Shown here: piece by piece, positions 5,396 through 32,200 of the stretch
Position numbering within the stretch: the first letter of the stretch is position 1
Layout: each line of letters opens with the position of its first letter
Source: Pelecanus crispus
Lineage: Eukaryota; Chordata; Aves; Pelecaniformes; Pelecanidae
Length of the DNA stretch: 64,000 bases
Assembly: GCF_030463565.1 (NCBI RefSeq)
Contig: NC_134653.1
Location: forward strand, 32,425,150 to 32,489,149
Reading direction: 5' to 3'
Made by a program: the position numbers and the translations under genes
Notes under the pieces: generated by a model
What the model saw: only the letters and a program-made list of their open reading frames with translations
What the model was told of the DNA's origin: nothing
The model's database searches: none

Positions 5396-5409
5396 AGGAC
5401 TCCCAAGAG

Positions 5410-6115: not shown

Positions 6116-9100
6116 CTGCAAGGATCAGAGATTAGAGTTCTCTGCCAGAAGACTCTTCTTTCTCCCCCTTCGTCTCCCATAAAACCCTCTGCACAGGCAA
6201 GCTACTCTTCGCTACTCAGACTTTGCATTTCCAGTGCCACAAGGCCTTTTGATTCAGAAATCCACTCTCTGCAGCAACACTTCCCACCAAGCACAGGGCT
6301 GCAGGGCTGAGCTCTACCCTCAGCACCTGTCAAGCAACCCCACTACCCCACTAAACCCTTCTACTGGCCAAACAGATCATTTGGAACCTGAAGGGAGGCG
6401 TAGCTGCGGCTGTCAGCATACCAGTCTCAGAAAATACCAACCCACTGGATGCAGCAGGAACCCCCAAAAGCCAAGAAGGAAGGATTTGATGGGGACAGAG
6501 CTGTTGTCTGCAGCTCTTGGAAGGCAAGTGCCAAGGACTGCAACCCAAAAAAGAGGTGTAGTGGGAGCATGAAAAGTTCTTGAACACACATTTCCCTCTC
6601 CAAGAGCGGTTGCCCAGGAAACATGACAATATTTGTTTCTAGTGCTCCTCCCTGCAACAGCTTTGAGGTAAAAATGAGCTTCTGTTTCCTCAGAGCTGTG
6701 GTTCAAAGTCCCTGTTTGATGTGGACTTTCTAAATCATGTTTCAGAATCTCTCCAGAGTCAGAAGAGGAAGCAACTTTGACTTCAACTCTGCCTTCACTG
6801 ATGCTTACCCGTTCATAATCCTCCACATATTTGTATTTCTTCTCCCGATAGTAGTATTTCTTCTTCATGCAATACAGAACAACAATGTCACACAGCACTG
6901 TTGCCTAGTGGAGATTGAAAGAATTTAAGACAATGATTCTCAGAACTGAGGCACTAATCCAGAATCGAGTCCAAGTGCAGACAGTGTCACTTACCACACC
7001 GAACAGCGCTAAGCCAGAGCCGATGTTAATCATTGTAGGAATTATATCAAATTTTCCTGCCTAGAAGACAGTTATAAAAGGTGAATATGTTTTTCCGGCA
7101 CCTCTGAAAGCTGTCACCACAAGATCCCCAGGAATTAAGTCACCCTACCTTTCCAAACACTATGATATCAAAGCGGATGCCATAAGCTTTGATAAGCGTC
7201 CGTGATTCAGTGCCATTGCTATCCTTGTAGTATTTCGCAAACCTGGAGAAAAGATAAGTCAGAGCTTAGCTGGAAGTTTTGAGGTTGCTTATGCGATCAT
7301 GCAACATCCAGGTGTGTCCCCCATCCCAAGAGGATGGGTTGAACATTGGTACTTCCAGAGACAAGCCCCAAATGATGGAGGGGGATTTCATGCAGGCAAG
7401 CACATATAGGAGAAAAGCCCAGAACAGGCGAATTTAAGACAGCAGTTAGCACAGGCCAAATCAGGAAACTTGCAAAGCGTAGGAAGGGAAGAAAGTTAGC
7501 TTTAGTAGGGGAGCAGAAGGACAGACGGGAAGAAACTCAGCTACACAGGAGAAGCAGCCCCCTCAGCCAGAGGCAAGCAGGAGGCTGCAGGAGTGCAGGC
7601 AGCCACGAGAGGGCAGGGCCGGGAGCAGGCAGCGAGGGAGGCAGCAGGGCTCAGCCTGGCACACGGAGGCTGGTCCTTGTCCCGCACAATGTGACTCACA
7701 GGCAAATGCTAGGGAAAAGGGACGAGACCAAATAAGTGAGATCAGACTTACTCCGCCACATGGTTGACTAAGCCAGGAGGAAGCAGAGAAGGGGGTGGAA
7801 GAGAAGAGAAAGGATTGGTAAGGGGCTGTACCACGGTCTGGAATTAGCAAGAGCACTTCAGAACCCGCACCAGCTGCGCCGCGCTATCTCCAGCTGGTCT
7901 CGCCTGACACCCCAATACCTGCAGGCCCAGCACCTCCCGAGCACACGCCTGTGCTGTCTGCATGACAGCAGCTTCTCAGTGAATTCATTCAAGTTCCACC
8001 ACAAGAGATCCCCTGTGCTAAGAGAGAGTTCGTGATCCTAGAAAAAAGCACAGCCCTGAGCCGTGTTTCCTCACGAGCAGGACTGTTGCGAGGATCTTGG
8101 CAAGGTGGCCAATCCATGTTATTATAGCTCTGAGCCCGTGTGCAAGCAGCTACCTGGCTCTGCGCTGGTGGTTTTCTTGGAGGTGCTGGACCTATCCATA
8201 CTGGCCAGAATGTATATGTGGTAGCGTATGCCAGAAGGATACTTCTGGTGCAGATACGGTCTTCAACTGACAGAGCCGCTTCTAGAGGTTAGTTTTTCCC
8301 TCCTGCAGAGTGAAGGAGGTGCTTCTGTCTCCCACCCCCACACCCCAGCCCCCTCAAATCCTGCCCTATCAGCACACCCTGAAACAGTCAGTTCTCACAT
8401 TGCCATGCCACGGGAGGCTGGCCCACACGGTCACCCAAATGCTGATGCAAACATGACTCAGACACTCTGACGCAGTCAGCGGAGCTTCATTCTCCTTCCC
8501 CCTCTGCTGTGGTTTGCACACAGTGAGGATCTGACCTGCTCTATGTTTTACAGCACCAGGGAAACTCTCCAGGTTTTACAGCACCACCGAAAGTCCAAGG
8601 ACTACCCGCAACTGCCAGAGGAGTGCAGGCAGCCCGTAACACCGTGCCAGTGACGGACTGAGCCGCAGGGACACCAGCTGCCCTCCATAGCCACATTACC
8701 TGAAGTTGTAGCCAGGCGAGACGGTGTGGGCAGAGTCCCTGTTGTCGAGGCGCCGGAAGGAGTACTTTGGCACACAGTGGGAAGCAGCTCTGTCAAGGTT
8801 GCAGTCCCAGTTGATCTGCAGCGCCATGACTCCACCCTGCCAAGTGGAGGAGAGAAGGTGAGCAGTCCAAGTGCCCAGCCAGCCCAGCACTAGGCTCTCT
8901 GCTGACCAGGACCCTGATTTACAGGCCCTCATCCTAGTCCCAGTCCAACACACTTTCCCCCTGCTACAGAAGGACCTTGCGCATAACCCCACCCAAACAA
9001 GCCAAGGCCAAATATTTTTTAAGTAGAATTGACTCCGGTCCCTCTGGCCAGAGCAGCTCTCCATTCTGCAGCTACTCTGCATCCTGTGGCTCATGCCACA

Positions 9101-12100
9101 AGGCAGAGGTGGACAACCACCTACTGCTCCTCTTCTACACAGCTGAGGCCCAAGAGAAGGGTTTGTCAGATACCTCCACAGCCATTTCCTGGAAGTTCTG
9201 CCCTGCAGCTTCAACTATTTTCCCTAAACGAAAGATAGGGCAGAAGGGATCTGTCTGGGAGTCATAGATGCAGTTCTTGAGGTAGGTGGAGTTGATAGTG
9301 GGGAGGATGTTTCGCCTACAGGGGAACAGAGAGAGATCTGTTGCATCTTCTTCCACTCCTCCAGCTCCCCTTTACTGTCCAAGAGACCAGACAGCGCAAT
9401 GCCCCACATGCTATTTACTTGCTGAAGTTGAACTTGGGGTACCAAATGTTGTTCTTCACCAGAACGGTGAAGTTCTCAGCTTCTCGCAGGAACGCTGGCC
9501 TACAAAACAATAGGAAAAGTAAGTAAGTTTCACTTATATTTTCACAAACAGGACTCTGCAGGGACCTTGGTGACCACCTCTTCACAGCTTTTTCCAATAG
9601 TACCTCATAGGGAGAAACATCAGCTGCATACTGCTAGCCTCCTCTCAGGAGGGCCACCACAGAGTAGGAAGACAGAGCACTCACTTGGGTATATGATAGT
9701 CTTCCTCCACAGGGCACCACGCAAAGATTTCACAGGTCTTAATGCTGCTGTTGTACGGTACACACTCCCCAGTCTGGATGCCTGGAAAGACATGTGAACG
9801 GAGGTACTACCAAGCAAAAATACAGAGGCAGTATTTGCCCTGTGACATCTCCTCACTCCGTAAAGTGAAAGCAATCTGCTCAGAGGTGAACTGCCAGCAC
9901 CAAGACCCCCATTATCTTCCATTGCCATTTGTAGTGCAGTTTCAGAGAAAGTAGCATCAGGTCTGTTTCCCGCGTCAAATCCTCATCTACTTGAAATAGC
10001 GCTTCATGGATTCAAGGTCTTGACAAAGCCCTCACACTGTTTGCTAACCACCAAAGCACACATGTATCCAGCATCCACCCAAAACAGTCTAAGCCCATCT
10101 GGCCTCCCCCAGAAGAAAAAAATCTGAGCTTCCCTTTCAGTTCTCTTATGTCTGAGAAAATGAGAACAAGGAGACTGAAGTGAAATGCTGCTTCCTTTGC
10201 AGGAGGGAGAGCACAGCACAGAGGTATCACAACACAGACTGAAAGGAGCTCTTGCAGCAGGCTTCTTACCATTGCTGTGGGTGCTGACATATCCTGGAAC
10301 ACAGTTATTCTTCACCTTGCACTCTGTTTTATCATCTGGAAGCTGGAGAGGAACAATAATTACACTAAACTCTACGAACTCTCTCCCCCACACTCCCACC
10401 CACCCAAGGGAGGATTAAAGCAGATCCTGTACCTACCTCTGGGCAGCGGCCTTGGTGCTGGTTCAGTGTGAGTATCACATTGGTCATGACAAACACAGTG
10501 TTCTCCTCCTGAACATGCAAAACAAGAAGGACATTTAAGAGCGACAGTCTGCAAAGAATATCCAAGGCACTGCCCCAAATGTCTTTGTTGACAGAGCCCA
10601 GGTGGCCCCGCAGAGAGGACTTGCTTTGGACAGTGCTGGTAGGGCACTGAAGGAGCAGATTCCTGCAGGTATCGCCTGATGCCGCTGCCTTTAGGCAGAG
10701 GAAGGGCTGTAGTGCTAGTAACCCTTTCTATTCTCCCACTTGGCCCAAATTTCCTCATTCACGTTATGAAAACAGAGAGCACACAACTCCTCAAGGGAGT
10801 TGCAAGGCAGGAGCAGAAATAAAGCTTCAGCTGCAAGTCTGAGCACAACTCCCGTTCTTTTTTTTGCAATATATCCATTAGAAAATCACCGGTCCTGGTT
10901 TGTTTCTCCAGGGAGCACCACTTCCATTATTTTCAGATCTGTACAATTCAGGATCTGCTGTTTGCTTCTGCTCTACTGATATGTCAATATGATCACTCAG
11001 CCAAAATCTGGCTACACCTGTCACTTTTTTCTGCACCACAACTCATGCAGACAGAGTGACCCACGATTAGCAGCTTGGCCGTGCCTGCCAATCCCCGAAA
11101 GCCACCACATGTTGCCCACGCAGCGCAGACTCCCACAGATGCAGTCAATCAGTAACTACAGCGATACCTCCTGTTCAGTTCCGGATCAAGTGACTTGCAG
11201 GCTATTCCCAGGGTTTCTGCCAACAAGTTAGCTTAGATGTTTGCTTTAGAAAGCAGTAAAAAAGAGGACATGTGGTTATTGTTGCAACCTTTTCCTGAAG
11301 CCTGCAAAATTCTCCCTCCTATACAAGCACACACAGAGACACGCTTTTCTTGAAACAAGCTTCCTCAGGGCTAGCGGTGCAGGCGCGCAGCATGATCTGC
11401 AACAAAGCAAAGCCGCTTCATTCCCTCGTATCAAGGCCACGTTAGAGCCGAAGCTGCTCCAGACCTCAGCGGACTTTGGCAGAGCAGCAGCTGTTCGTTA
11501 GAAAACCCTCCCTCTGCACGCGAAAGCGCTCGGTACCTGAGGAGGGATGACATAGTCAGCTACATCCCAGATCCTGGCTCCCAAGGCGGATGTGTTTGTC
11601 AGCGTTACTCCTTTCACCTTTATGGTTACAGAACTGACCACAGAGTCCGTTTCCTGGTAGCCCTTCTCCCACACAAAGACCCAGCTGGAGGAGAAGGATT
11701 GCAAGAAAGAAACAACAAAAAAACCGATAAACACCATAAACCAGCACAGGGGATTTCTCCTTTTTTCATGTGACACCTGAAAGGGCCAGTCCAGAGAGTT
11801 TCACGGCGCTTCCCTACAAGAGGGTCGCAGGACTAGCAATCTCCCTTCTGACTTTTTTTTAAGAGTGGTTTGGCAGGGTGTCATTAGCGCTCTTAGGCAC
11901 CCCCCGCCGGGGGAATGACGCCCGCCCGCCGGGCCGGGCTCGGCCCCTGAGGGGCCCCGTCCTGCCTGCAGCTGCCTCTGCGCCGCCCCACCGCCCCGGT
12001 TAAGGCCTCCCGGGGAAGCCGCCCCACCGCCCCGGTTAAGGCCTCCCGGGGAAGCCGCCCCACCGCCCCGGTTAAGGCCGCCCGGTGAAGCTGCCCCCCC

Positions 12101-12567
12101 GCCCGCTCGTCACCTCCCGCTGCCGCCACCCACGACGGCTGCCGCGGCCGAGCTCCCCTCAGCCCCGCGGCGGGCGTTCCCGCCGCCCCGGCCCGGCCCG
12201 CGCCTCCCTGACAGGAAAGGGGGTCCCTGAGAGGGGGTCCCGGCAGCCGGGAGCTGAGGGAGGCGGCCGGCTCCCGCCCCTCAGCCCCACGCTCCCGGCG
12301 AGGAGCTGCCCTTCCTCCCTCACGGCAGCCGCCTCCCCCCGCCGCCTACAGCCGCGGCGGGGCTGCCGGCTTCCCCCCAGCGCAGCCCGGCGGGGAGGGG
12401 ACCCCGGCCGGCGGCGGGGCCCGGCCGCCCGCTCACCCGATCACGTAGGCGAGGATGGCGAGCTGCACCCCGCGGTTGATGAGCCCCACTTTGCGGCTCC
12501 GGATCAGCACGATGCGGGGGGTGTCGTACTCGAAGAGGAAGCTGCGGAACGCCCCGCACGACACCAT
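6083..12567 (-). CDS. P2RX4: P2RX4, ATP-gated cation channel P2X4 (complete, 12 exons)
   Basis: Trimeric ATP-gated Na+/Ca2+ channel of plasma membrane and lysosomes. Coding exons (minus strand): 12567-12437, 11684-11537, 10508-10437, 10342-10270, 9781-9685, 9499-9419, 9315-9174, 8836-8700, 7242-7149, 7060-6995, 6904-6809, 6115-6083. All introns are GT-AG and phases fit, giving 389 residues (human 388). Seen: N-terminal YDTPR kinase-type motif; TM1 at about 30-50; ATP-contact residues KVK (66-68), NFTVL (183-187), NFR (292-294) and K312 in LIKAYG; an ectodomain with the family's paired cysteines; TM2 at about 333-355 with IGSGLALFG and the conserved Asp in LCDIVV; then the YREKKYKY tail. Exon 12 adds [10 protein letters not shown], so the junction makes YERGV, equivalent to the human YXXGL endocytic motif. 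The start is the ATG in the CpG island, as in other P2X4 proteins. The gene looks fully functional. Confidence 0.95.
11982..12089. repeat. 36-bp tandem repeat, three copies
   Basis: Three consecutive copies of a 36-bp GC-rich unit containing CCCCGGTTAAGGCC start at 11982, 12018 and 12054. The first two are nearly identical and the third diverges at its end. The repeat lies in P2RX4 intron 1, about 350 bp downstream of exon 1. Confidence 0.85.
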
Positions 12568-14996: not shown

Positions 14997-15462
14997 CTAA
15001 AAACCAGTATAGTTGTTGACTGCTTTGGGACAAGTATCTCTAATTTTCCACCTGCAGCAGGCTTGGAATGATGGCTCTGTCTTCCAGATCAAAAAAGCCC
15101 AAGTGCCAGTGAATGTACTGCTTGTAAGCAAGGTGATGCAGCTGGTTGTTGATATTGCCATCTGTCGAGTCCAGAAAGGGGTCTTTGTAGAAAAGGGCTT
15201 TCTTCAGAGCGCGACTGGACAGCACCAGCTGCTGAAAGCAATGGGAGGCTGTGATGCACTGCCCTTTTTTCCTTCGGCAGCAGAGCTGCTCATGGTACTT
15301 CTGTGTTGGCTGGCATTTGCCACAGCAGCACCACTTTTGGCAGTCTGGGGAAGAGGCCCCTTGTCTGAGAGGTCGCCCCAGCTCGTATTCTTCATTATCA
15401 TGGTTCTCGTTGGACTCGCTGGTGCAGCAGCTGCCAGCATCACAGAATTTCACAGGGTGGCT
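14997..15462 (-). pseudogene. P2RX7: P2RX7 exon 13 remnant (cytoplasmic cysteine-rich domain)
   Basis: Starts after acceptor ttgttgcag with SHPVKFCD. It retains the P2X7 tail signature: DCQKWCCCGKCQPTQ, LCCRRKKGQCIT and the LAYKQYIHWHLGFFDLED block. The frame then meets an extra C near 15057-15063, which creates LLQVEN and an early TAG at 15042-15040. Ignoring that base, the sequence continues CCRWKIRD ... NNYTGF to a TAG at 14999-14997, aligning with the known P2X7 C-terminus. Length is 466 nt, one more than a multiple of three. Confidence 0.85.
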
Positions 15463-15934
15463 CTGCAACAACAATTCCAACATAAATTAGAGAAGAAAAC
15501 AGCATTTGCTGCTTCATCCAACTGCAGAGAGAATTTAGAAGAGTGATCCTCGCCATTGGGTTTTTCATTTGACACAGCACAATAGGGATAATGATGATAG
15601 ATCAGCAGATCTGGAGGAGGATTGTCTTTCTGTGCTGCCAACGCCCACCCTAGCGAAACTGAATCGGCACCTCGCAAGTTGTTTCAACACCAACGTACTC
15701 CCGCTGGCACATACCCACCACAGGAAAGCAGCAATTTTTAGCTGACTCTAGAAAATACATCCTCTGTTCACAGGACCTATTAACTTGAAGCGGACAATAG
15801 GAATCTAGTTTTAGCCTCTCAGAATCTAGTCTGGAAATATGGGGGGGTGGCAGAAACCCAAATCAGTTTGGAATGACATTCCTCAGTTCTCCCTTCTGAA
15901 GGGAGGATCCCAAAGGTTAAGTGTCTGTCTTTAC

Positions 15935-16030
15935 CTCAACAATGCTGCCTTGAGCAGGCTGTGAGCTTGTTTTCAAAGGCTTCTTTATCAAGGTAACATG
16001 TGGCTCATCAGCATAGCACACATACATCAC
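15935..16030 (-). pseudogene. P2RX7: P2RX7 exon 12 remnant
   Basis: Thirty-two in-frame codons between acceptor ctgcacag and donor GTAAAG, including YADEPHVTLI, which matches the P2X7 region FVDESHIRMV. The exon itself has no lesion. Confidence 0.8.
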
Positions 16031-16643
16031 CTGTGCAGCAGAAGAACCGAGCATTGTCAGCTGGAGTAGTTCCTTGGAGAACTGAGGACAAACACAGCTT
16101 AGATCTGACCTCAGGGCTTGGGTTCTGCAGTCTGTACTCCAATAACAATCCTCTGCAATTGCACGTTGCAAGGGCCCATATTTCCAGTATCCAGGATAGC
16201 AAGGACATGGGGAGCTGCAGGAACAGAGGGAACGGGAAGAGAAGGTATGGAACTAACTGTAGGAGTGTGGTTGTGTCTTTAGGTACTCTCCTCTTCACTC
16301 TTCTTTAAAAATACATGTCTAAAATGCTGGGGAAATAGTAGAGGCAGCCTAGAGAAATAACCATTAATATCTTGAAAAAGAGGAAGAGGCAACTGAAGTT
16401 GGCAGGGAAGAGGCTTTGAGCAATGCCCTCTTCATGGACAACCCTTTCATGACATCCTTCTGCGGTTCTGAAGGATCACTACTCCCTGCAGGTTTCCCTG
16501 ATAGAGCTGGTGTGACTCTGCCATGTCAAGGCTGTGTGTAGAGCTCACTGTACTCATGCAGTGCATGCTGTGCACAGCTCCATGGAAGCTTTCTGGATCA
16601 GCTGCATTTTTGTGTCCATAGAGCAGCAATTTACATTCTTTAC

Positions 16644-16760
16644 CTGTCTTGGATTCAGCACAGTCTCAGACTTTTTTCTGTTGTAAATTTTGTAGAATGG
16701 TGATTTGCCGCAGCTGGAGCAACTACCTACCCAAGTAGCAATTGCAGTGGTACTCACAAC
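16644..16760 (-). pseudogene. P2RX7: P2RX7 exon 11 remnant (end of TM2, cysteine anchor)
   Basis: Thirty-nine codons ending YNRKKSETVLNPRQ, matching P2X7 YYRKKCESIVEPKP. Compared with the human exon (about 50 codons) roughly eleven codons are missing in the cysteine-rich palmitoylated segment. The acidic residue of TM2 that is conserved through P2X channels is replaced in this alignment. Confidence 0.65.
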
Positions 16761-16855
16761 CTGCACATGAAAAAAAAGCAAGTAGTGATTCCACTTTTGT
16801 AATGAGACTGTATCTCCAGAACTGGTTTTATCAACACAAAAAATAAGTCTCTCGC

Positions 16856-16921
16856 CAAACCAAAATAGGAGATCATGGACCCAATGTTTTTAATGAGTTC
16901 AATGCCGTTAAATTTTCCACC
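16856..16921 (-). pseudogene. P2RX7: P2RX7 exon 10 remnant (start of TM2)
   Basis: Exactly 66 nt as in P2RX4, reading GGKFNGIELIKN then IGSMISYFGL. The block IGS-SYFGL identifies P2X7. Charged residues Glu and Lys now lie inside the expected membrane helix, and the donor is GCGAGA rather than GT. Confidence 0.8.
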
Positions 16922-17074
16922 CTTAAAGCAAGCAGAAAAGAATAACTGGGAGGCAAGATCTGTTATCATTCATTCAACTTAATGGCTTTTCTCTTTTTGT
17001 CTCTTCACAATGTATCTTTGCCTCTTTATAATTCAGCCAATCCCAGAATTTCATAGACCATCTCAGACACTTTG

Positions 17075-17136
17075 CAGGGGAGAATAAACAACCTGAGAGG
17101 GAAACCAGGGGAGAATAAACAACTTGAGAGGAAAAC
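17075..17136. repeat. 31-bp tandem duplication
   Basis: Two copies of a 31-bp unit containing GGGGAGAATAAACAAC start at 17075 and 17106. They lie in P2RX7 intron 9. Confidence 0.8.
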
Positions 17137-17414
17137 AGTGGTGACACACGGGGTTCATGACAATAACATCACATCATGATGATACCTGTTGTTGTCTCAG
17201 TCTTAAACAACAATCCTGCCTCTCTCCCAGCCCTGCCATTTCATCCTCAGCTTTGCTGTCCTATGCTGTTCAGATCAATTTACATCTACTCATCCAACAT
17301 GACTTCCATCCTACAATGATGGACACAAGAGAGGAGAGCAGTATATGGCAGAAGTGGGGCTAAGGAAATAGCAAGCTTTCTTCTCCCTCCACGAAGAAAA
17401 AGAATTGCGTTTAC

Positions 17415-17508
17415 TGTGCCAAAGACAAGGACATCAAACCATATTCCATAGACTTTGAAAAGGGTTCTCTGCTCCTTCCCATGTGGTAGCTTGTAGTACA
17501 TTGCATAT
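17415..17508 (-). pseudogene. P2RX7: P2RX7 exon 9 remnant
   Basis: 94 nt, the P2RX4 exon 9 length. It reads YAMYYKL...EQRTLFKVYGIWFDVLVFGT, matching P2X7 RTLIKVFGIRFDILVFGT, with an Arg to Trp change in the GIRFD motif. Confidence 0.85.
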
Positions 17509-20500
17509 CTGCAAAAGAATGAATGATGATCTGTGCAGCTTCCCTGGGAGATACAATGCCATGAGGCTGCAGAACACACAAAGAGGCATAGTTTCTTCTC
17601 CCTTCTTCCTCCAGCCCTTTCAGCCTTCTGAAATGAAGGTGCTGAGCCCAGCTTGATGTATTTTGCCCAGCATCTGACCTGGCAGTCTAAACTAAATTAA
17701 TACACATATAGAGATTCAAACAAGTTAAAAATCCAACTAATGTCCAACGAGTGTTTTGCTGTCTCAATTCAAATTGGAACCTGAAGCTGCAGAAAGCAGT
17801 TCAATCACAGGTAAAGCAGAAAAAGAAAACCCCAGCAAGGATGTGTGAGGATCTGGCAATGACAAGAGTGCCCATGCTCTGAAGGCTTTAATATCATGTT
17901 ATCCAAGACCAACTCTGAACTCCTGAGCACATTTCAGCATGCTGGATATCAGCCGTTTTCCTTTCTTCGATCAGTAGCGAGTGGCAAGAATTATGTGAGC
18001 CTTTACTAACTTCCAGGTTCTTACTCCGTCAAGAACGTGACCCTCCTGATGCACAGCTCACATCAGCTTATGGATCAATAAGCAGCCACAGAGCATGGAA
18101 CAAAGAGATCTTTTTAAATCTGACAATGAAAAGCTGGCAGTACAGACAAAATCATTACATTAAACTGAAAGACATACTAAAACACACAGTGGTACTAATA
18201 TCCAGCCTCGGATAACAACACCCATATGTCTTCTGCCTCAGACATGCTGTCAGGACTTAAAAGTGCTGTATTGTTCTTGACTGGTTTACTTGAGTGAACT
18301 CTAAGTCCTGTTCTCCTTCATTTAGATAAATCATTTGAACAGGAATTTGCTTAGCTGAAGGGACAGAAGGTCAGTTCCAGGGGCAGCAGATACTCACAGA
18401 TCACTCTGTCATTGCTAATCAAATTTTGTTTTGCAGTTGTTTGACTGTTCAAGTACCAAAAGAGTAAACTGTTTAAGAGGGTATGTCTGGTGTAAATACC
18501 ATCAGCTCAGCCCTCTGCTTTCTAGCATCTCCAGGTACTCATTCAGATGATAGAGACATCTAAAGAAAAATACACTTTCCTCCTTTCCTTTCTCTTTGGG
18601 TTCAGTCCCTGCTGCTCTGCTTTGCCATCTTGATGCTAACAAACCAGCCCAGAGCAAGCTTTTACTTGATTCCACTCTCTCCCGCACATCCTACTGCAAG
18701 CTAAGTTTGGCTTTCAGAGTGCTTTTAATCAGAGTTCCCCAGATCATGCCATCATTTGCTTCCCATTCACCACGATCTGATTTGTATTCTCTGAAGGCAG
18801 TGAGTCACTCAGAAAAACACACTGTAATGTGTTCTGCTTTCTCCTTGCTTGCACAGACATGAAATGCCCTTTTTCTGGTGCTGAACGGTTCTGCAGTCTA
18901 TGGCCAAGGCATGTTTTATTGGCTAGCTCTTAGCCTCTGAAGCCTGCAGGTCAGTTAGGTTTTATTTGAAAGTTTTCCTAGCTCTTTCCAGGATCAGAGG
19001 TTTTTTCCAGCCCTCAGGGTAGAGGTTGTTTCACATCTGCTCTTGATGGCATAGAAGCCTTCTCCTCTGTAACAGCTTTGTGCCCAGAGCTGATCTGTTA
19101 AGAGCTTTCTTGATCACTGGCTGAAGTTTTGCTCCCTTGCACCTCAAGTAGTTATTTTCTTTCAGAAGGCTAAAGCCTGTTTCCATTTAAGTCTATCACA
19201 AAATTCCCTTTGGAACTGAGATGAAATCAATGGGGCTCCATGCAGACAGAGATTATAAGCTGCCCAAAGTTGCTTTCCTGACTTCTAGGATAGCTAGACT
19301 GCAGGAGAAGCAGCATTCTGTATGTGCCCTGTTTCTTATGCTCTTTTCCAAAATTTTCTCCTGCTATTGATCTTTGTTAGCTTTAGGACACTGGGCTGGA
19401 TGGACCTCTGATATGATAATATTTTACATTCTTATGACATGTCACTGATGTCAAATAAGTTTTCTTGAAATATATTAATTGTAGGATCATTTCTAGCTCT
19501 ACCCCCCCCCTTACTCACTTGGGTAGTTCTACTGAAATCAGCAGCTCTGTTTATACAAGTTGGCATACGCTAGCTCAACAGTGTGGCAGGGTTCGTGCAC
19601 GTTCTTCGCCAAAACATCCATGCTTGTTTTAAATAGTATTATGCTCAGTCTATTCACTGCTCTTCAACTTTCACTGTCTTTTCTTTTTAAATTGCTGCAC
19701 TGAACTACTCTGCTCCTCTTTTTTTAATTTTGGAGACATTAGAGAAGGACATTTCTTTGCCAATAAACCCCTTGACTAACATATACAGAGTCACGCCACC
19801 AGGATGTGGTCTGGCATCATGCACGCTCTCCCAGCAGCCTATGTTCTCAGACCAGGCTCACTTCCCACAGTAGAGATTTCAGCTGAATGCAGCATAATAA
19901 TTTTGTTACAGACTGGTATTTTGATGCTTAAAAGATAACATATTTTGGGCAAACCCATTCTTGGCATTTTGACGCCAGCTGTTAATCTGCCACTAAACAT
20001 CCTCAAAACTACTCCACTGTCTTCTTCCAAAAGCCTTCTCAGAAACTGCTTTGCCTACAAAATGTATTCAACAGAAAGGTTGCTGGCCTCAGCCTCACAG
20101 CACTGTCTTGCTTTTTCCTTGTGATCTCCCCCACCTCCTGTCTGTGGTTGCCAGGTCAGAGGGAACACCTGTATGTTCTTTGTTTGCACAGTTCCAGCAC
20201 AGTGCAGCTTTGGAATATGCTGGCAGCTCCTAGACAGTTACAGCACTCATGTTAGCATCACAAATGTATGAAAACCCATAATAATAATCATGCCGTGAGT
20301 CAAAAAAAGAGTGTTGTTACACAAGAGTTTTGACCTAGATCTGAAAGACAACTTTAGTTTTAAACATGCTGATAAGCATGTGATAAATGCTTTGTGTAAC
20401 TATTTAGAACTGGAGTCACATCAAGATTTTTTGTCAAAACTTCTGCTATATGCACACAGAACCAAAAGCTCTAATTTGCTTTTGAATAAATCCTGATTCA

Positions 20501-20901
20501 GTGAACTGTGGAGTTACCCAGATGGAAGAAAAACACTTTGTTATTTTATTTGTGTTAATTGCCTTGGGAAACTCACAAGTTTAGGTAGTTTCAAGCCTCA
20601 ATTGCCATATGGTGGAATCTGCCCAAACTATTCTCTGTGTTAGCTCCCAGAATACTTGTTGGAAATTGCTAGGCCTTTCAACACAGAAATCAAATCTCCT
20701 GCAATACAAGCATGGTCATTTGGAAGGTGACCACGATGACACATCTATACAACTGCAGTAACTGCAGGTTAAGGACATGACTACAAGAGTGAAGAAGGAG
20801 AATCAAATGTCTTGTCATTCCAAGTCATCATTCCCTGTACCTCACCACATCTTTGCTTCAACTCAGGAAACATGCTACTTGCTTCATGTAGCACTTTTTA
20901 C
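17509..20901 (-). other. P2RX7: P2RX7 intron 8
   Basis: No exon recognised. A short CR1-like stretch lies near 19385-19430 (ggctggatggacctctgata). Otherwise nothing is seen. Confidence 0.5.
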
Positions 20902-21027
20902 CTGAAGTGGAATCCAGGCTTTATTTTTTTGTCATCAAGGTGGTGGAAACCATACTTTGGACTGCAGTCGTAAAACCAGCTGCCCAAAGTTACAGTCCCA
21001 GTTCATCTCAATGGCAATGATTCATCC
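20902..21027 (-). pseudogene. P2RX7: P2RX7 exon 8 remnant with nonsense and frameshift
   Basis: Bounded by acceptor tttctag and donor GTAAAA. Codon 2 is TGA (21024-21022) where the family has Gly. Then IIAIEMNWDCN follows in frame. A one-base insertion at about 20977-20989 shifts the frame before WFYDCSPKYGFHHLDDK, which matches P2X7 [17 protein letters not shown]. Length 126 nt equals the P2RX4 exon (137) minus four codons plus one base. Confidence 0.88.
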
Positions 21028-21399
21028 CTAGAAACAGACACAGTAAGCTTAGGGACTAGCGCTGTGATTGTTGCCTGTGCTAACCTGCTGTTAAAGTCAG
21101 CAGAGACTTGAGGGATGCCATTGCCAGGGACACATCTCTATAGACACACTAACTCATAAAGAACATTTGCCAAGCAAGCAGTCTTCTACGGAAGTGACTT
21201 AGTTACGTGAGCTAGAAGCTACCATTCATTCAGGCCTTTCCTATATTCTATTTCTCTCCACCTTAGCAGCACAAGCGTGGATGTAGCTGATACACTGATG
21301 GTCGTTTCATTGCTTTAAAGTACCTATAGGCTCAAACCAAAAGCCTGAATGCAAGCCTAAGTTTTGTAGGCACCCAGTCCAAATGTTTCATCTTGAATG

Positions 21400-21500
21400 C
21401 ACTGTGCCAGGCTGAGAATCAATACATGTGACTCAGTTGATGACTCTGGGCAGGACACTTTGTCTGTCCTTCTATTCTACCCATCTGTTAATACTGACTT
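21400..21500 (+). mobile_element. Possible MIR-like SINE fossil
   Basis: The segment tgactctgggcaggacactt followed by ccatctgttaata resembles the 3' part of ancient core-SINEs (MIR/LF-SINE type). It is short and diverged; the call rests on pattern recognition alone. Confidence 0.35.
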
Positions 21501-21541
21501 TCTAGAGGTATGGCTGGATACTGTGTTAAGGGCATTTGGCT

Positions 21542-22107
21542 TGTCCTGGTTTCGGCTGGGATAGAGTTAATTTTCTTCCTAGCAGCAGGCATAGTGCTGT
21601 GGTTTGGATTTAGTAGGAGAAGAATGTTGATAACACGCTGATGTTTTAGTTGTTGCTAAGTACTGCTTATGCTAGTCAAGGACTTTTCAGCTTCCCACGC
21701 TCTACCAGGTACACAAGAAACTGGGAGGGGGCACAGCCAGAATAGTTGATCCAAACTGCCCAAAGGGCTATTCCATACCATATGACATCATGCTCAGTAT
21801 ATAAACTGGGGGGGATTGGCTGGGGAGCAGCAATCGCTGCTTGGGAACTGTCTGGGTATCGGTCGGCGGGTGGTGAGCAATTGCATTTTGCATCACTTGC
21901 TTTGTATATTATTATTACTATTATTATTATATTGTTATTATTATCATTACTATTTTACTTTATTTCAATTATTAAACTGTTCTTATCTCAACCCAGGAGT
22001 GTTTCTCACTCTTACTCCTCCGATTCTCTCCCCCATCCCATCAGGGTAGGGGGAGTGAGCGAGCGGCTGCGTGGTGCTTAGTTGCTGGCTGGGGCTAAAC
22101 CACAACA
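21542..22107 (+). mobile_element. Solo LTR of an avian ERVL-like endogenous retrovirus
   Basis: A 566-bp element starts TGTCCTGG and ends CCACAACA, so it has TG...CA ends with TGT/ACA inverted tips. It is flanked by a 4-bp direct repeat GGCT at 21538-21541 and 22108-22111. It holds a TATATAAA box at 21798-21805, an ATTAAA signal at 21971-21976 and an internal ATT-rich microsatellite. There is no internal viral gene on either side, so it is a solo LTR left by recombination. I recognise the start as a common interspersed LTR of neoavian birds. It lies in intron 7 of the P2RX7 remnant, antisense to it. Confidence 0.85.
21901..21962. repeat. ATT-rich microsatellite inside the LTR
   Basis: Irregular run of ATT/ATC triplets on the plus strand, part of the LTR. 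Confidence 0.75.
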
Positions 22108-22542
22108 GGCTCAATACTCTAAAGAACAGAGAGAAAATGCAATGGCAGAAATAAGTGCTTTTTGACTCTGAATATAAGCTGCCACTTGTGCCAGTCTGAC
22201 TTTGGATGATTGCCCCAGCAACATGATTTAGGATCTGCTTGGGTAGAATCAAAAGATGACCACGAGTGACAGCCTTCTATAGGACCTATTTAAATGCACT
22301 GTGCTTTGTAAGAGGGCCTCTACTTGCTACAATACTAACAAAATAATATCAACTCTGTCAACATGGGTCCCATCCTGTGAAATGTTAAGCACATTCAATT
22401 CTCGAAAGTTGGGGTTACTTTGCTTCTCACACAGTTTCTCCACCTAGAACAATTCCATTATATGACAGACAGCAGAACATGCAGGAAGAGAATCAAGAAA
22501 GTGTTGTAACACGGAGCATGAAAAAAAAGTGATATCACAGAC

Positions 22543-22684
22543 CTTTACTGCCACTTCAGAAAAATTCTCTTTTGTTTCCTGAAAGATATCTCCCAGATGC
22601 AAAATTGGACAGAGCAGGGAAGTTATCCTGTATGTGCAGAAAGTACTCAAATTTGATGGAATAGTGTGCGTGTGTGTGAAATGT
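22543..22684 (-). pseudogene. P2RX7: P2RX7 exon 7 remnant
   Basis: 142 nt, identical to the P2RX4 exon 7 length, after acceptor gttcttcacag. The 3' half reads CPILHLGDIFQETKENFSEV, matching P2X7 CPIFRLGDIFRETGDNFSDV. The 5' half has drifted to a Thr-His repeat caused by a CA-rich run. Confidence 0.85.
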
Positions 22685-23257
22685 CTGTGAAGAACACACA
22701 CAATTGTTTAAATTTAAAAACAAGCTGGAGCAGCTACAGATACAGGTACGGGACTTCACACTTACTAGAACCTGCATTAAATGTGCTCAGTTTGTAAGTA
22801 TATGAGCTTTTGGTTTTGTAGCTACCAGATCTATACATCCCTAACTGGGATCTGGGAATCAAGATGAATTCTTTACTCTTTAGATTCAAAATTCAACCTG
22901 TGTAAACTGAACACTTTCACCTTGTAATTTGAATCGCATGTCTGTTGTGCTATATGTTAGTGATTTTACCCTAACAAAAACCAGTATATCTGAATGAACA
23001 ATTCTGTTGTTCAGTGCATGAGAGACATAGAGTTATGCTGGGAGGCTCTGTTCCCAAGATCTCCTTATTTCTCTTGGTTCCTGAAGAATTAATAGGGCTA
23101 AAGAATTATAGAAACTTGATATCATATTTATCACTCAGGCAGATACAGCCCTCAATGCATAGCCTTTTAGAGTAAAGAAGGTGCCAATTTATACAATCTT
23201 TTTTTCAGAGCACAACTATTCACTCTTCAGAAAGCATTGAGGGATGTTTGCACTTAC

Positions 23258-23338
23258 ATGGTGTAATTAAATTTTGGGAAGTGAATGTTGTTCTTTATTA
23301 GCACAGTGAAGTCTTCAGAACTCCTCAGAACAGCAGGC
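23258..23338 (-). pseudogene. P2RX7: P2RX7 exon 6 remnant with lost acceptor
   Basis: 81 nt, as in P2RX4, reading PAVLRSSEDFTVLIKNNIHF and ending at GTAAGTG. It matches P2X7 PALLNSAENFTVLIKNNIDF. The bases before the exon are GG (23340-23339) instead of AG, after a good T tract. Confidence 0.88.
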
Positions 23339-26300
23339 CCAAAAAAGAAACATCAAATTAAGTAACTTCTTTTACTTAAATACATCAGTTAACGTTAACT
23401 GCTACTTTACTATTACCTGGAAAGCTGTCAGTAGGAGGAATATTTTGCTAAGAATAACAGATTGAAATGCAGGGAGTTAGGTGGCTCAGGGGATCAAAAA
23501 AAATATAGGTGGTTTTCTTAGTTTTAGGTATAAATTGTTCTCTCTCTATTACACTTGTTTGTGTGGACCAAGCCTAACCGGAGTCTCTACATGCAGCTGA
23601 AATATGATCCCAGGAGACTTCTCATATAAATCTTGCTATAGTAGAGTAGTAAGAAATTACACCATTTGACAGCTGATGGTTTCTGCACAATGAATTGGCA
23701 GTTTCATTGTTGGTCCCCACAGACACGTGGCCATTTACACCAGACCTGCATAGCTGGTAAGAGTATAAGAATAAGCCATGTGCTCAATCCTAGAGGATGT
23801 CCCTGGAAGTCAGGTGTCAATCACATCACCAAAGGTTGTCCTGCCTTCCTAGCAGATACTGGTTTGAGGACCTCCCCTGCAGTGGTTTGTGTCACTAAAT
23901 ATGTAGGTGGAATGCAAACACAATGGAAAGCAGGCTGCCAGTCTGACCCTTCCTCAAAAGAGTGATTTCTCTGAAGCTAACGTGGCACGAAAGCAGGAAT
24001 TTTCCCACCAGTTGCCAGCTAGGTAACCTTGGCCTAGACTGTGTGAGACAGCCCCTGCTATACTCCAGGACTTGCCAGGGCTTTAGGAAAGTAAGAGATA
24101 CAATTTTTAGCATTGTTTGTCTAGCATAGTGACTATGCTGAACTGGAATATTGGCATTGTTCCATTTTAAGAATGAGCCAGGAATATTTTAATTTCCATC
24201 AAGACAGCCATTCCAAGGGGAAAACCCAGTCTTCAAAGCAGTCATCCACATAAAGGACAGTACTTCTAAGCAGGGAGTATTTTTCCTATCATTGTATTTC
24301 GAGCAATGCCTCTGCATCAGAGATCTGTTATGACAAGAAGCACATTAGCTGGATGACATGCAGCTTCCATGAGCGACTTCTCATGAATGTCTTCTAAACC
24401 AAGACAACAAATGAGACTTGATTGCAAACCAAACTAACATTTGTGGATGCTACCTGGACACGAAAGTCACTGATGATTTTCAGTGCATAATAGTCAAGAC
24501 ATTAATAATGTATGTTAATTCTTAAAGAACCAAAAATGAATGAACCTATAATGTGAAACTGTCCATAATTCACCCACTGGGAAGCATCTGGAATCTGATC
24601 CAAAGGTCTTCTGAAAAAGGTGTTGTAAACACCTGTCCTTCAGCCAGCTAATCTGACAACTGTGCCCTGCCTCAGGCAAAAATGAACAATCAAAAATAAA
24701 AGAATCTTCTTGCCAACAGGCAATGGCTTTGTTCAGCTCCTGCCATAACTAACGGGAAGGAAAAGGAGGCCTCCTGTATAGTTCATGAATCTTACCTGTC
24801 AAAGGAATTTGGACAATAAAGACAATCATGGGTGTAACCAAAGCCCACCATTGCTACTTCAGTATCTCAACCAGATTGCAAAGCCTCCTGGGCTCTAACC
24901 TTGCTCTTATGTACTGTTCTGGGAGAAAATAAACACTCAGATTTGCTTTTTGGTGATTCCTCATCTTTTTCCTTGTCAGTGGAACTTGTGAAGGAACTTT
25001 ATACATCAGTGGTTTGGATCAAACCTTTCATCCATTATTGTTGGTCCCTGGTAGTGACCAACTACTGGCACTTTAGAGGAAGGTTAGGAAACAAGACAGA
25101 ATGTGTCAACTGTGCAATGTAATTAAAAGCAAAATTCCCTCTGTAACATACGCAGCAGTGAGCCTACGCAGTGTGACATTTAAAAATGACTGGCAGTCAC
25201 TGAAACTTTATAAAAAACCCCTAGGATTTCATTAACTCAGGAAGCTCATGCATATCTTTCCCGGATGCTGTATGAACAATTACAGCCTTCCTGTTGTTGG
25301 ACAAAGCCTTTTTCAGTTCACAACTCTGTCTGACGGAGAAGGGAATGGCAATTCCTTTAAAGAGCTGAAAAACACTCAGCTGAACGAGCTGTAGGAGGCA
25401 TTGTGGGCTCTGGAGTGGACCTGGCAGTGGAAAAACTGCTCAGTCTCTGCAGAAACCCCTGAATTAGGGAAAAGATTGGATATATAATACATAGAATCAT
25501 GCTTGTATCTTTTAAAAGTAATGAGTTAATAAAAGTGATAATTGACCTAGTTTCTTACACATACATTTCAAAGCTGGTTGAGAGGAGCTAAACTTGATTC
25601 TCATTTGCTCTCTTAGAGTATAATTTCCATCATTTCAGTTGAAATCAAATATTTTATAAAGTTTTTTCATGCTTTGGCTGGTACAGAATAGAAACAGAAC
25701 ATTTTAATCTTGGAACACTGTACAGTCATGGGGTTACAAAAAAAGATGGCTATGATGCCACTCTATCCTGCTCTCTAGGTCAAAGCAGCATTGTTCCATG
25801 GAGTCTTTTTCCTAGAGTTTTCTTCAGCTCGCTATTACAGATTGCCAGCACTGAGGTTTTTATCATCTACCTAGAGAGGATGGAGAGACTGTTCGTCGGT
25901 CTGAGGTAGATCCCCAAACACTAGCCCGCAACACAATGCACAGACAACCAATCTACCCCTACTGTTCTGGGAGGTGGAAGCAACCTCACTGTGATAAATG
26001 AACCCAAAAAGAACTTCTACACCATAGAGCCCTACGCCGTGCAGAAGAAAACCCCAAGTTAGGAAACTTTTTATTTCTGTCACTGATTAAACCTATCTTA
26101 TGTTGATGCATTTTCCTTGACATTTGAATTAATGAGCCAAATGCCTCTAGTGAATTCAAGATGAGCCTGTGACATCTAAAACTGTTTCTATGGCAGCTGC
26201 ATGATGATACAAACTGGAGGCTATGACTTCACTGCAGAATCATACAGCAGGACAGATTGTTAGAAGTTATTTAGACATTATAGTGAGTGTTAACAGTATG

Positions 26301-26439
26301 GCTATGAAGGAAATAGCTGTTTTACATACATGAGATCTGTATGTACCTAGGCAAAGGGATTATCCTAAAATCTCATGACTTTGTCAAAGTAAATCCTTCT
26401 TTTGACATAAAAAACCCCACAGATATCTCTTTCACTTAC
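23339..26439 (-). other. P2RX7: P2RX7 intron 5
   Basis: No exon or clear transposon recognised. Confidence 0.45.
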
Positions 26440-26531
26440 TCAGGGGGGGTTTCCATGGATCACAGGGCACCATGCCCTGACCTCATAGATTTTAACAGTT
26501 GCGTTATTCACACATCTTCCTGTTTGAATTC
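26440..26531 (-). pseudogene. P2RX7: P2RX7 exon 5 remnant with frameshift
   Basis: Starts after ctctacag with GIQTGRCV, identical to human P2X7 at that point, and includes RAWCPV. A conserved Cys is Tyr (KIYE for KTCE). Seven consecutive C (plus-strand G 26443-26449) give a +1 shift, so the exon ends in TGA directly at the GTAAGTG donor. Length 92 nt is 97 minus two codons plus one base. Confidence 0.85.
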
Positions 26532-28413
26532 CTGTAGAGAAACAAGCTCTTACTGAGCAAAGACAAGAGTTTTTCATGAGTTAGAGACAGTTTCAACATG
26601 TCAGTGGATTCCTCCTCAAATGTAAGATAGGGAGCTTGACATTTCAGATTGTTGCAGCTTTCCATAGGAGGAAGCTGTAGGAAGAACTACCCAAACCATG
26701 GTCCTGCCACACCTCCTCAATCCTTATTTAGCTGTTTGCTCGGGTCAACAGTGCTTGTCATTGTTTGGGCTGAGGGTGAAGTAATTTCCTTCAGTTTTAG
26801 ATGAAGTTATGTATCTGAGAAACCCACTGCTTCAGTCAGAAGTTTAATTCAACAACATGAGCAAATTAAACAAGGATATAAAGGTGGGCAGAGAACCTTA
26901 ATTCTTTCTGCGCTCCTGGAAACTCAGCATTTTCTGTGAGTGTTTAGTCTTTACCAGGGAAAGTGATAATCCAGCCAGCAGCCCAAATTCAGGGAATCTC
27001 AGCACTACAAAGAATTCACATAGCTCATGAAAACAGTACGATGCCTCCTGGACAACTGGTTCCAAATAAAGGACACAAGTCCCCTGCCTTATTCTGAGAA
27101 CTACCTAACCATCACAGGGGTGTTACAGACCCTTCAAACAGATCCTGCAGTCACTCCACTTGCTAAGCAGCCATGGACTTCAGTGGGAGTGACTGTGAGA
27201 TTGGCCCTCATTCACACCAGTCTGTACTCTTCACATCTCCCCTTCCTCTGCTCCCTCTCACTGTTGAGAAACAGTGAGAATCCGTTGAGAAGTGTTGAGA
27301 AACTACTCCTTTTAGTAAGGGCACACACAAGCTGATAGGAACTCAGTTTTGTGGTTTTGAAAATATGTTCTCAGATATCTCTTAGGATTCTGTACTGTTC
27401 TACTGTCATACTGCAAGTTGGATCTTGCACATGCTGCACTGGTCAATAATGCAATAGAAGATAGTGCCCACAAAAAATATTTCAATCTAAAAATGCCGTT
27501 TATGTAACATGACTGTGGATATCTACACTCCCTTTTTCACTGGACTTGTCTGAAGAGCAGATAGCTTTGGTGAAGGGATACTGGAAAAAAATTACATAAA
27601 AGAGCAATATAAATATCTCCCTCTCCACATCTATGTAAAAAGTCTTACTCAGCTTCAGCGTAAAAATACCGAATAATAAGAGAAAATAACAATGCAGAGC
27701 AGGTATACCCCTTACTAATTATTTGGCTGATAGGAGATAAAGGCTCAGCTACTTGAAAAAACAGAAAAAAGCCCTTTCCTTGCTTACAATAACATTTTCC
27801 TTTATTATTTATGTCTTTTCATGTTTTTCACACTCTCTCCTATACTGTTAAGCACAATAAATTTAATACTGGACTATTTAATTCTTTGTTTACTAACAGT
27901 CCCATATACTTTTGCCAGTGAAAGTCAACTTGTATTCAGGAACTACTCTGCAGGTCCCACTTCTAGGCCAGCCAAATGAAGAGGAGAGCTGCAGCTGACG
28001 ATGAGGTCTGACCTACAGAAAGGGAGGAAGGGGACATGTAGGAATGAGTAATAGTAAGAGCACCATAGTAGCAGAGAAGCTGATAGCAGTTCTGTAGCTC
28101 CATCATTCCTTCAGGTTTTCCTCAAAAGCAGCAGCAATGCCAGAGAAGCTGGACAGCAATCACTGGCCTGAATGTCATCACCTCCTGAAAGTGATGCAGA
28201 TAGGTTTGGCTGCAAGGTCATTGGTGCAAGGCAAAGTCACAACTGCCACCTGATTCCCCGAGAAAGAAAAGGAGCAATTAAACTAGATCTGCTGAGATAC
28301 AGACATAAAGAGCAACAGTATTTGCTTGTACCAGACTACTCCAAGGACAGTTCACTCTTTTACATCAGCATTCATTTGATACATCTGAAATATAATCCAC
28401 AAAACATACTTAC
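26532..28413 (-). other. P2RX7: P2RX7 interval where exon 4 is expected
   Basis: I searched the minus strand for the short cysteine-bearing exon 4 and found no convincing match. It may be deleted or too diverged to see. Confidence 0.45.
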
Positions 28414-28485
28414 CTCAGGGCACCTCTGCTCAAGCTGATTCTCTGTCTTAATGATGTTGGTCATGATGAAAAAAGAGTTTACTGC
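28414..28485 (-). pseudogene. P2RX7: P2RX7 exon 3 remnant
   Basis: Seventy-two nucleotides, as in P2RX4, reading AVNSFFIMTNIIKTENQ then EQRCPE, matching human NSFFVMTNFLKTEGQEQRLCPE. Good acceptor and GTAAGT donor. Confidence 0.88.
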
Positions 28486-29048
28486 CTACATGGAGGAAAG
28501 AATATGAATCTGGCTGAAATTTCACATACTCTATTCAGACCTCAGTCATTCCAGAACATCACCTGGAAGGACAACAAGGCTGTTCCTGCTCTACCTCCCC
28601 CTGATAGACATTCAGATTCTACCCAGCTCAAACAGGAAAAGCCAGGGACATCATCAGGGCAGGAATGAGCAGCCAGAGGCAAGAAGGCACCGATTTTTTT
28701 TTTTTTTAAACTGGCATTACAACTAAGAAAAATACACTAGCATTAATTGGTAATAACACTACTGTGTTTAGTACAGCTATACTGGAGTGAATCTGTTCCT
28801 ACGTTTACTATTACTAAAATACTAAATTGATTATGTAAAAATTGTGCAACAAATAGCACCACAGAAATCTAATAAAAGAGGATAATTTTTTTCCTTATAT
28901 TAAGGGAGGAAGGGAAGACTTGGCTTTAAACATTGCTGTCTGCAATGTAAAGTAATCACATTGAATGGTAGGAAACAGACATTTCAGGAAAGCAACCAGA
29001 TGTATCAATGGAAGCTGAATACTGGACTGGCGTTAAATTAAGACTTGC

Positions 29049-29181
29049 CTGCATTGGTATAGCATATTCTGCTGTATCCCAGATCCTGTTGTTTGTGTAA
29101 GCCACTCCCTTCACACTAGTGCGAACTGAGCTGTTAACTTCATCCATCTCCTGGCAGAGTCTGTAAGCAATGACTATACAA
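29049..29181 (-). pseudogene. P2RX7: P2RX7 exon 2 remnant
   Basis: Reads CIVIAYRLCQEMDEVNSSVR then VKGVAYTNN-RIWDTAEYAIPMQ, aligning with P2X7 exon 2 including the KVKG-type ATP site, where the first Lys is Ser here (TSVKG). The donor is GCAAGT, a GC-AG type that can function. Exon 1 was not found upstream. Confidence 0.8.
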
Positions 29182-29207
29182 CTGGCTAGATAAAACAGAA
29201 AGGACAA

Positions 29208-32200
29208 CTAAGCCCATAAGAATGAAATGGGTCAGCTTCTTTGTATCATTCTTGGACAAAATGCACTGCAAGATAAAAGTCAGATGGACATTTTCAAGTA
29301 ATTGAGAGCCTTTTTGTGTGAGACACATGCATCAGCTGGACAGACTTTGGTCTGCTTTGGTTTCACTTTTGCAACTTTTGGCTTTGTCAGAAATGAATTG
29401 ATATATGCAAGAAGAGAATTTCTATTTTCCCATCCTAAATGATGTAGACAACATGAGGTGACATCCTGGCCCTTCAGATGCCATTTGTGAAACACCAATT
29501 AACTGCAACAGGGCTTGATGTCATCCAAAAATTTTCACCCGTGCTGCGTTGCTGTGTACCTAGACTTTGATTTTTTCTGCCACGAACGGTAGTGTCCGCT
29601 CTACATTTTTTCTTTTTAAGACAGCATAAAATACTTAGTCCTTAACTTCCCAGAGTGTCTATTTTTGTGCCTCATGCTGATTGCTTCAAAAACTTTGACC
29701 TAATGTTTTCACTTTCTCATTAATTTAATGTGTTAATAAAAGGAGGAAGGATGCCTCTGTCTTTAAGCTGACAGGAACATCATCTAGCTCATCTAACTCA
29801 TAAAAGCACTGTCAACTTTGAAAAACTATTGTGTGTTCAGAAGATACTTTCCACACTACATAAAAGTGATATAAAAGGTTTGCTTTGAAAAACAAGCTAC
29901 AAGAGCTAGCACCATTTCAGTTTAACAACAGGCTGTTCTAGGCAGGGATAAAATAACATCTGAAGAACAGAAATACAAACCAACTGATCAATGTTCCTTT
30001 ATTTATATCGTCTATTATAATAGCATTTCAGCCTTTTCCTTCTGGAGAACAGTGCTTTGGGATAACCATGTTGTTGGAAACTGGCAGTGGGAACCCAGCT
30101 CTGAGCAGCAGTAGGTGGGTATAGTACCTTGGTAAGGCAACTTGAATTTCCTGCGGACTTGATTCTGTGTGAGATTGGGATCAGTGTGCTCAATGTCCTG
30201 GCTTGCTGCCCTCCCCTGAGAATGAAACCAACTTTATGAACTTCGGCAGACTTTGTTCAGCAAACACTTATCACTGAGAACAGCCCTAGTTTGGCAGCAA
30301 GGAGGAAAATCTGCCCTTTAGAGGCAACCAATTATTGCATATTCCTAAAACATCTTATTGTTCTTGAAATCTGCTGCAAGGGGTGACTCGCCATTTCATC
30401 TGACCCTGAATAGGAGACTCTGCAGGGCAGACTCTAATCTCAGAAACACTGGTGTAAATCTCAGATTATTCAGTGGAGTTATTTTGGATTTTTCAGACAA
30501 GAAACAAAACCAGAGAGCATGGCAAGAAATGAACTGCGAGTGTTTTTTAGAGGAAGCTTAGGTAACTCTGTCCAAGCAACCCCACCTTGTTAGATAACAT
30601 CCTATGTCACACTCCCACCACAAAGTTCCCACCAACACATCCATCTTCCAAGAATGGTCTAACACCAGATCAATGATCTTGTTGGCTGCCACAAAACTCA
30701 AAGCGCTGAAAGCCAAGTTGTAACCAGACAACCTCCAATACAAGAAACATTCACTCATGTCCAACACAGCATCCTGTCACCAAATAGACAGAGCAACAGT
30801 TATATAAGGGAAAGATTTCACAAATCCAGGTGTAACACTCTGAATGCGTATGTATTTCGGAGAGTCATACCGAGTCAGGCACTCCAGCCAGCCATGTACA
30901 CCACCTGCTAGCACTTCCTCTGAGGAACTGGCTTTTGAAAACCACAGCTGCCTGGTGCTGTCTTCTTCTACCCCTGCATCGTTCCTGGGCCACCCCACTT
31001 AAAGGCACAGTCAGAAACCTGTATGAGAATGGTACCACAGGCCTTTTCAAGAACAGCATTTGATGGAATCAAGAACTGCCTGAAGAGCCACGTCCTTTGG
31101 TTTGTTCACAGAAAAAAGCACCAAATTTCACTCTGGACCTCCAGAGGTGATTGCTCAGCACTGTTCTTGTTACCTTCTGTTGATGGCACCATCTCTCCTC
31201 CGTACTACCAGACTTTGCCACTCTGAAGCAACGCTGGGACAACTGTAGAGATGAGGCTAAACAGATGGAAGCCAGCGTCACACTGACCTCCTTCCAGACC
31301 TGACTCTTCACCACCCAACACTTCACACCAGCACAGAGAATGCGTAATGCACTTCTGGACTGTGCAGATGCGTATAACACCCACTTTGCAGGGGTGGCAA
31401 CGGCCATGCAAGGTGCAGGGCACTGGTAAAGCAAGCTTTTGGGTCATCAATGGCCACAGAGATCTCCAGCTTCTCATCTCACATTACACAGGACACCACC
31501 CTATTTGGTCTTAGATTGGTTTTATATCAGGTCACGGGGTTACAAGGGAGTGACAACATCACTACTCCTCTCAGCAGAGCCAATACATGGCACATACTTT
31601 GCCTGCAGCCTTTCCTACTCCACAGAACCATGCACAAAGCAGAGCTGGTCAGTGTGCTGCAAGCCAAATATTTGCATCTGGTCCAGGGGGTCAAGGGTGG
31701 GTGTGAGGCCACTATCTGACACTGTAAACACAGGAGGGGGAGCTGTAAAGATGTGGAGCTGGCAAGGTGGGACCTGTAAATCTCAGGCTCAGAGTCTGAA
31801 AGACAAGAAATTTGGATCGGAATGCATTAGCACCCAGATTAAAAGGAGCAGGGTCCTCTCTCTGACAACAGAAGACCCACACAGAGGCACAAAATATACA
31901 AACCTTGCAACACAGATCTAATGCTTTTCTTCCAATCCTTTAGTATTTTAAATCACCTAGGATGCTACCTTTGGCTGTAGTCATGACAAAACATTCAGAA
32001 CCAGACAGGCTCCTTGGCTGTCAGTATTGTCTTAAATGCTTTAGGACACAGGAACAAGTTACATTCTGCACAAACAGGCTTAATTTTTTGAGACATCAGT
32101 GATCACTCCTCAGGCTTTTGCTGACCACAGTCCATACTCCTGTGATTGGTATTAGCGACACTTCAGCAAGCAAAATCCTGCTACATAATAACAACGGAAA

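Follow-up and report, generated by a model that had tools for sequence, protein, structure and literature searches.

In mammals, P2X7 is a cell-surface channel that senses adenosine triphosphate (ATP) released by damaged cells, contributes to the onset of inflammation and is a main ATP-gated trigger of NLRP3 inflammasome activation. The closest solved relative of the gene analysed here is chicken P2X7 (PDB 5xw6; XP_001235163 as named in PMC5638823), which, according to the accessible text of that paper, gives biphasic ATP currents in HEK-293 cells. A 2020 survey describes, in its accessible text, a typical P2X7 in all tetrapods studied, with chicken the sole bird named in the legend (PMC7016195). 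We analysed the corresponding gene, P2RX7, in a 64-kb stretch of Pelecanus crispus DNA (NC_134653.1, positions 32,425,150 to 32,489,149; hereafter the window), whose assembled sequence is the evidence for what follows. We found that P2RX7 at this locus is very probably a unitary pseudogene carrying several independent lesions, ‘unitary’ being judged from this locus alone. Remnants of all 13 exons lie in order on the minus strand across approximately 14997-30895:

30781..30895, minus strand: exon 1 remnant, whose part from the conserved Tyr onward (30869-30781) is followed by a GT donor; the ATG at 30895 lies in another frame
29049..29181, minus strand: exon 2, 133 nucleotides (148 in P2RX4), in phase; GC donor in a strong context (CAG/GCAAGT), possibly usable
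28414..28485, minus strand: exon 3, 72 nucleotides, as in P2RX4 exon 3; AG and GT sites
27509..27580, minus strand: exon 4, 72 nucleotides against 73 in P2RX4; donor out of phase; conserved Cys135 changed to Ser
26440..26531, minus strand: exon 5, 92 nucleotides, its phase off by one base next to seven consecutive C, with TGA at the exon end; conserved Cys162 changed to Tyr
23258..23338, minus strand: exon 6, 81 nucleotides, in phase; acceptor GG in place of AG
22543..22684, minus strand: exon 7, 142 nucleotides, in phase; five-codon CA-rich stretch absent from chicken
20902..21027, minus strand: exon 8, 126 nucleotides; second codon TGA (nonsense), and the frame shifts by one base after WDCN
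17415..17508, minus strand: exon 9, 94 nucleotides, in phase; AG and GT sites
16856..16921, minus strand: exon 10, 66 nucleotides, in phase; GC donor in a weak context (TTG/GCGAGA)
16644..16760, minus strand: exon 11 (end of the second transmembrane segment and cysteine anchor region), 117 nucleotides, open, its start strongly diverged
15935..16030, minus strand: exon 12, 96 nucleotides, open; AG and GT sites
14997..15462, minus strand: exon 13 (ballast domain, PF20478), 140 codons in frame, then a frameshift at the third zinc-cysteine cluster; stop TAG at 15042-15040

Exons 2, 3 and 5-13 were recovered in order by translation and by tblastn with a human P2X7 query whose residues agree one by one with PDB chain 9e3m. 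Exon 13 matches the Pfam family P2RX7_C (PF20478, the ballast domain; E=4.9e-42) with exons 1-12 in order upstream of it, and the joined exons 2-10 find chicken P2X7 (5xw6) as their best match (E=3.9e-115). Bit scores place the joined pieces closer to P2X7 (387 for chicken 5xw6, 303 for panda and 302 for human) than to P2X4 (268 at best). The remnant shares 189 of 311 aligned residues with chicken P2X7 (60.8% identity), which in turn shares 168 of 315 with human (53.3%). Like its chicken counterpart, the remnant has a gap in the exon 2 region and no Lys at position 64; unlike the remnant, chicken P2X7 keeps all ten ectodomain cysteines and has no stop at the start of exon 8. The window also contains the paralog P2RX4, which adjoins P2RX7 downstream on the same strand and whose exons are collinear with those of P2RX7, with the same phases and with five identical lengths (exons 3, 6, 7, 9 and 10, at 72, 81, 142, 94 and 66 nucleotides). 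P2RX4 differs from the remnant in being intact and in showing no ballast exon, and 151 of 348 residues are identical between the two. The 13 separate exons with introns between them argue against a retrocopy. On sequence grounds the locus is the P2RX7 ortholog: a ballast exon joined to P2X exons, closest to P2X7 and linked to P2RX4.

An initial annotation of the window had reported eleven exon remnants in P2X7 order and had not found exons 1 and 4; the order stands, the count is 13, and both exons were located (30869-30781 and 27580-27509) and tested against 300 dinucleotide shuffles. Exon 4 appears as a weak tblastn match at 27583-27512 (E=0.09), and scores 90 against chicken exon 4, where the best shuffle reaches 41. 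For exon 1 the score against its rat counterpart is 48, a value reached by none of its 300 shuffles (maximum 41), and that against human exon 1 is 45, reached by a single shuffle; its match to P2X4 exon 1 is weaker (scores reached by 9/300 and 34/300 shuffles). Measured from the conserved Tyr, exon 1 runs for 89 nucleotides to its GT donor, equal in length to the same stretch of P2RX4 exon 1 in the window (131 nucleotides less the 14 codons before Tyr).

Six changes qualify as hard lesions: the phase of exon 4, the frameshift in exon 5, the acceptor of exon 6, the nonsense codon and the frameshift of exon 8, and the frameshift of exon 13. The last five had been listed in the initial annotation, and each is present. 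Two of the six (exon 8 nonsense and exon 6 acceptor) are substitutions rather than insertions or deletions. Exon 5 measures 92 nucleotides where a remainder of 1 modulo three is needed (97 in P2RX4), and exon 8 measures 126 where a remainder of 2 is needed (137 in P2RX4). The acceptor dinucleotide is AG in 11 exons and GG in exon 6, while the donor is GT in 10 exons and GC after exons 2 and 10. Beyond the hard lesions stand the start of exon 1, where the 43 open codons examined upstream of Tyr contain no in-frame ATG, and the weak GC donor after exon 10. The frameshift in exon 13 breaks the third zinc-cysteine cluster, leaving its motif only in the neighbouring frame and clusters 1 and 2 in frame (motif as defined in the accessible text of PMC7016195). 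A reverse primer for chicken, taken from PMC9899245, matches exon 13 with two mismatches; the forward primer from the same paper has no match at three or fewer mismatches.

Several candidate lesions were rejected. An apparently lost exon 7 acceptor is resolved by an upstream CAG that yields a 142-nucleotide exon, as in P2RX4 and in phase, and an apparent frameshift at the start of exon 2 by a second AG (CCAG) that gives the expected phase. Loss of the exon 9 donor was dismissed because the exon matches its P2RX4 counterpart in length and has a GT donor, and the GC donor of exon 2 was not counted as a lesion given its strong context. A contrast in lesion density between the 5' and 3' parts of the gene was also set aside, the lesions being too few to judge it.

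Two features of the exon 7 region are recorded separately. If the upstream CAG is the acceptor, the CA-rich stretch at 22670-22684 adds five in-frame codons to the start of exon 7 relative to chicken. The intron between exons 7 and 8 contains a 566-base element (21542-22107) that begins with TG, ends with CA and has GGCT on both flanks, and that we take to resemble a solo long terminal repeat of an avian endogenous retrovirus.

The initial annotation had named a transcript that skips the lesions while keeping a full channel frame as grounds for abandoning the pseudogene call, and we computed this possibility by joining every non-empty subset of exons 1-12 (4,095 in total) to exon 13 and translating the products, with the exon 6 acceptor and the GC donors leniently treated as usable. 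The longest ATG-started open reading frame over all subsets is 314 amino acids, and none of the subsets gives a full channel frame, the longest frame of every subset holding at most three of eight motifs of exons 2-10 (shorter frames were unscored). A single frame stays open across exons 9-13 for 264 codons, 262 of them from a Met in exon 9; it has neither the first transmembrane segment nor the last zinc-cysteine cluster, and almost none of the ectodomain.

Two neighbouring genes served as controls:

6809..12567, minus strand: P2RX4, 11 exons located (1,137 nucleotides), no stop or frameshift; the short last exon was not located
36089..56856, plus strand: IFT81, the upstream neighbour and second control, 10 matched pieces, no stop

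The description of P2RX4 as clean in the initial annotation agrees with the state of its 11 located exons, which have a GT donor in 11 of 11 cases and an AG acceptor in 10 of 10 (exons 2-11). Hard lesions number six in approximately 1,690 nucleotides of P2RX7 (1,672 by exon ends) versus none in approximately 2,343 nucleotides of P2RX4 and IFT81 combined (Fisher p=0.005), where the IFT81 pieces come from an unconfirmed human query and their length is approximate. The original call of a multi-lesion pseudogene is thus supported by the reading-frame, splice-site and exon-skipping checks and by two clean neighbour genes. Downstream of P2RX4 (window 1-6000) no gene was recognised, the open frames there having been listed and not searched; human synteny would put CAMKK2 in this place. 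The first intron of IFT81 contains a CR1-like fragment at 36960-37100, with a tag at 37001.

We then compared residue changes in the remnant and in chicken P2X7. Of the 120 sites that do not vary across mammalian P2X7 and the P2X4 of human, zebrafish and the window, 32 are changed in the remnant versus 20 in chicken (Fisher p=0.084); paired by site, 18 are changed only here versus 6 only in chicken (p=0.023), and 17 versus 6 when the stop is left out (p=0.035). Four of the 18 remnant-only changes replace Arg by His or Trp, which CpG decay would fit. Eight of the ten ectodomain cysteines are kept, C135 and C162 being the two replaced. By the pairing of P2X receptors these two are presumably disulfide partners, and the chance that two cysteines lost at random are partners is one in nine, which offers only a hint that constraint on the head domain may have eased before final inactivation. 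The ATP site is altered at two of six residues in both birds (K64, which is T in chicken and S here, and N292, which is S in chicken and H here). We rejected these replacements as proof of lost ATP binding and regard them as uninformative on loss, because both positions are also changed in chicken P2X7, which has T64 and S292 and yet is ATP-gated.

One alternative to gene loss is that P2RX7 is intact and that its lesions are consensus faults of assembly or sequencing. In favour of this, a change in length by one base accounts for four of the six hard lesions (those of exons 4, 5, 8 and 13), and the one in exon 5 adjoins a run of seven C. We nevertheless consider such errors very unlikely as a general explanation, given the two substitutions among the lesions, the absence of lesions from P2RX4 and the matched IFT81 pieces, and the change of Cys135, Cys162 and other family-invariant residues. 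A similarly small probability attaches to an intact P2RX7 elsewhere in the genome, of which this copy would be a decayed duplicate: the evidence covers the window, and against a duplicate the copy adjoins P2RX4 and retains a full intron-exon structure. Least probable of all is a shortened product from exons 9-13, such as a free ballast-domain protein of the kind known in fish and frog. The long open frame described above and its intact zinc-cysteine clusters 1 and 2 would favour such a product, as would the ballast-only proteins without a channel that are described for fish, frog and invertebrates in the accessible text of PMC7016195; against it, cluster 3 and approximately 20 terminal residues are lost through the frameshift in exon 13, and exon 10 has a weak GC donor.

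Several results count against a pseudogene and belong in this balance. An assembly error is possible at exon 5, where the frameshift lies beside the C run. The lesion excess weakens to p=0.07 when three lesions are counted and to p=0.087 when P2RX4 alone is the control. A Tajima-type count with human as outgroup gives 36 changes here versus 27 in chicken (p=0.31), and at 243 sites invariant in three mammalian P2X7 proteins 103 are changed here versus 91 in chicken (p=0.31). Removal of the stop and of three sites of doubtful alignment from the 120-site paired count leaves 14 versus 6 (p=0.12).

We favour inactivation of a single P2RX7 gene, which would have proceeded as follows. The ancestral P2RX7 was probably functional, as the ATP-gated chicken P2X7 suggests. 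The gene occupies the position expected for it, with IFT81 and P2RX4 on either side, and was very probably inactivated by several independent lesions in the start region, the ectodomain, the splice sites and the ballast domain. Inactivation would postdate the split from chicken by a wide margin, since the 264-codon frame across exons 9-13 is still open and the protein has not diverged significantly faster than its chicken counterpart. These sequence data fit, and do not prove, a P2RX7 that was constrained for most of its history since that split and was lost afterwards. Cells of this bird would then be without the P2X7 route of ATP sensing, with P2X4 and other purinergic receptors left.

Other losses of immune genes are documented in birds: the accessible text of a review (PMC11599095) states that ASC was lost in several birds that kept NLRP3 and records RIPK3 and ZBP1 as lost in birds, and the titles of other papers indicate losses of MDA5, RIG-I, RIPLET and CNR2. 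These are likewise lineage-specific inactivations of genes for innate immunity or inflammation, and P2RX7 is not named with them in the accessible text of the matches listed. Among those matches, including PMC13230957, PMC7016195 and PMC10179175, the accessible text contains no report of avian P2RX7 loss, subscription literature lying mostly outside the search; an eLife paper devoted to caspase-1 and gasdermin A mentions ASC and NLRP3 only in its reference list. The wider avian picture drawn in the initial annotation has some support in the review; a link between P2RX7 loss and the reduced inflammasome toolkit of parts of the avian tree is only plausible. A bolder and rather doubtful possibility is that the loss is common to a whole bird clade and forms a step in a wider dismantling of the route from ATP to NLRP3 and ASC, in which the C135/C162 disulfide was given up first and the channel after, and that these birds are natural P2X7 knockouts. 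If the loss is real, a bird without P2X7 would be a natural knockout, suited to finding out if P2X4, P2Y receptors or ASC-independent sensors compensate and if P2RX7 loss tracks infection tolerance or the other inflammasome losses of birds.

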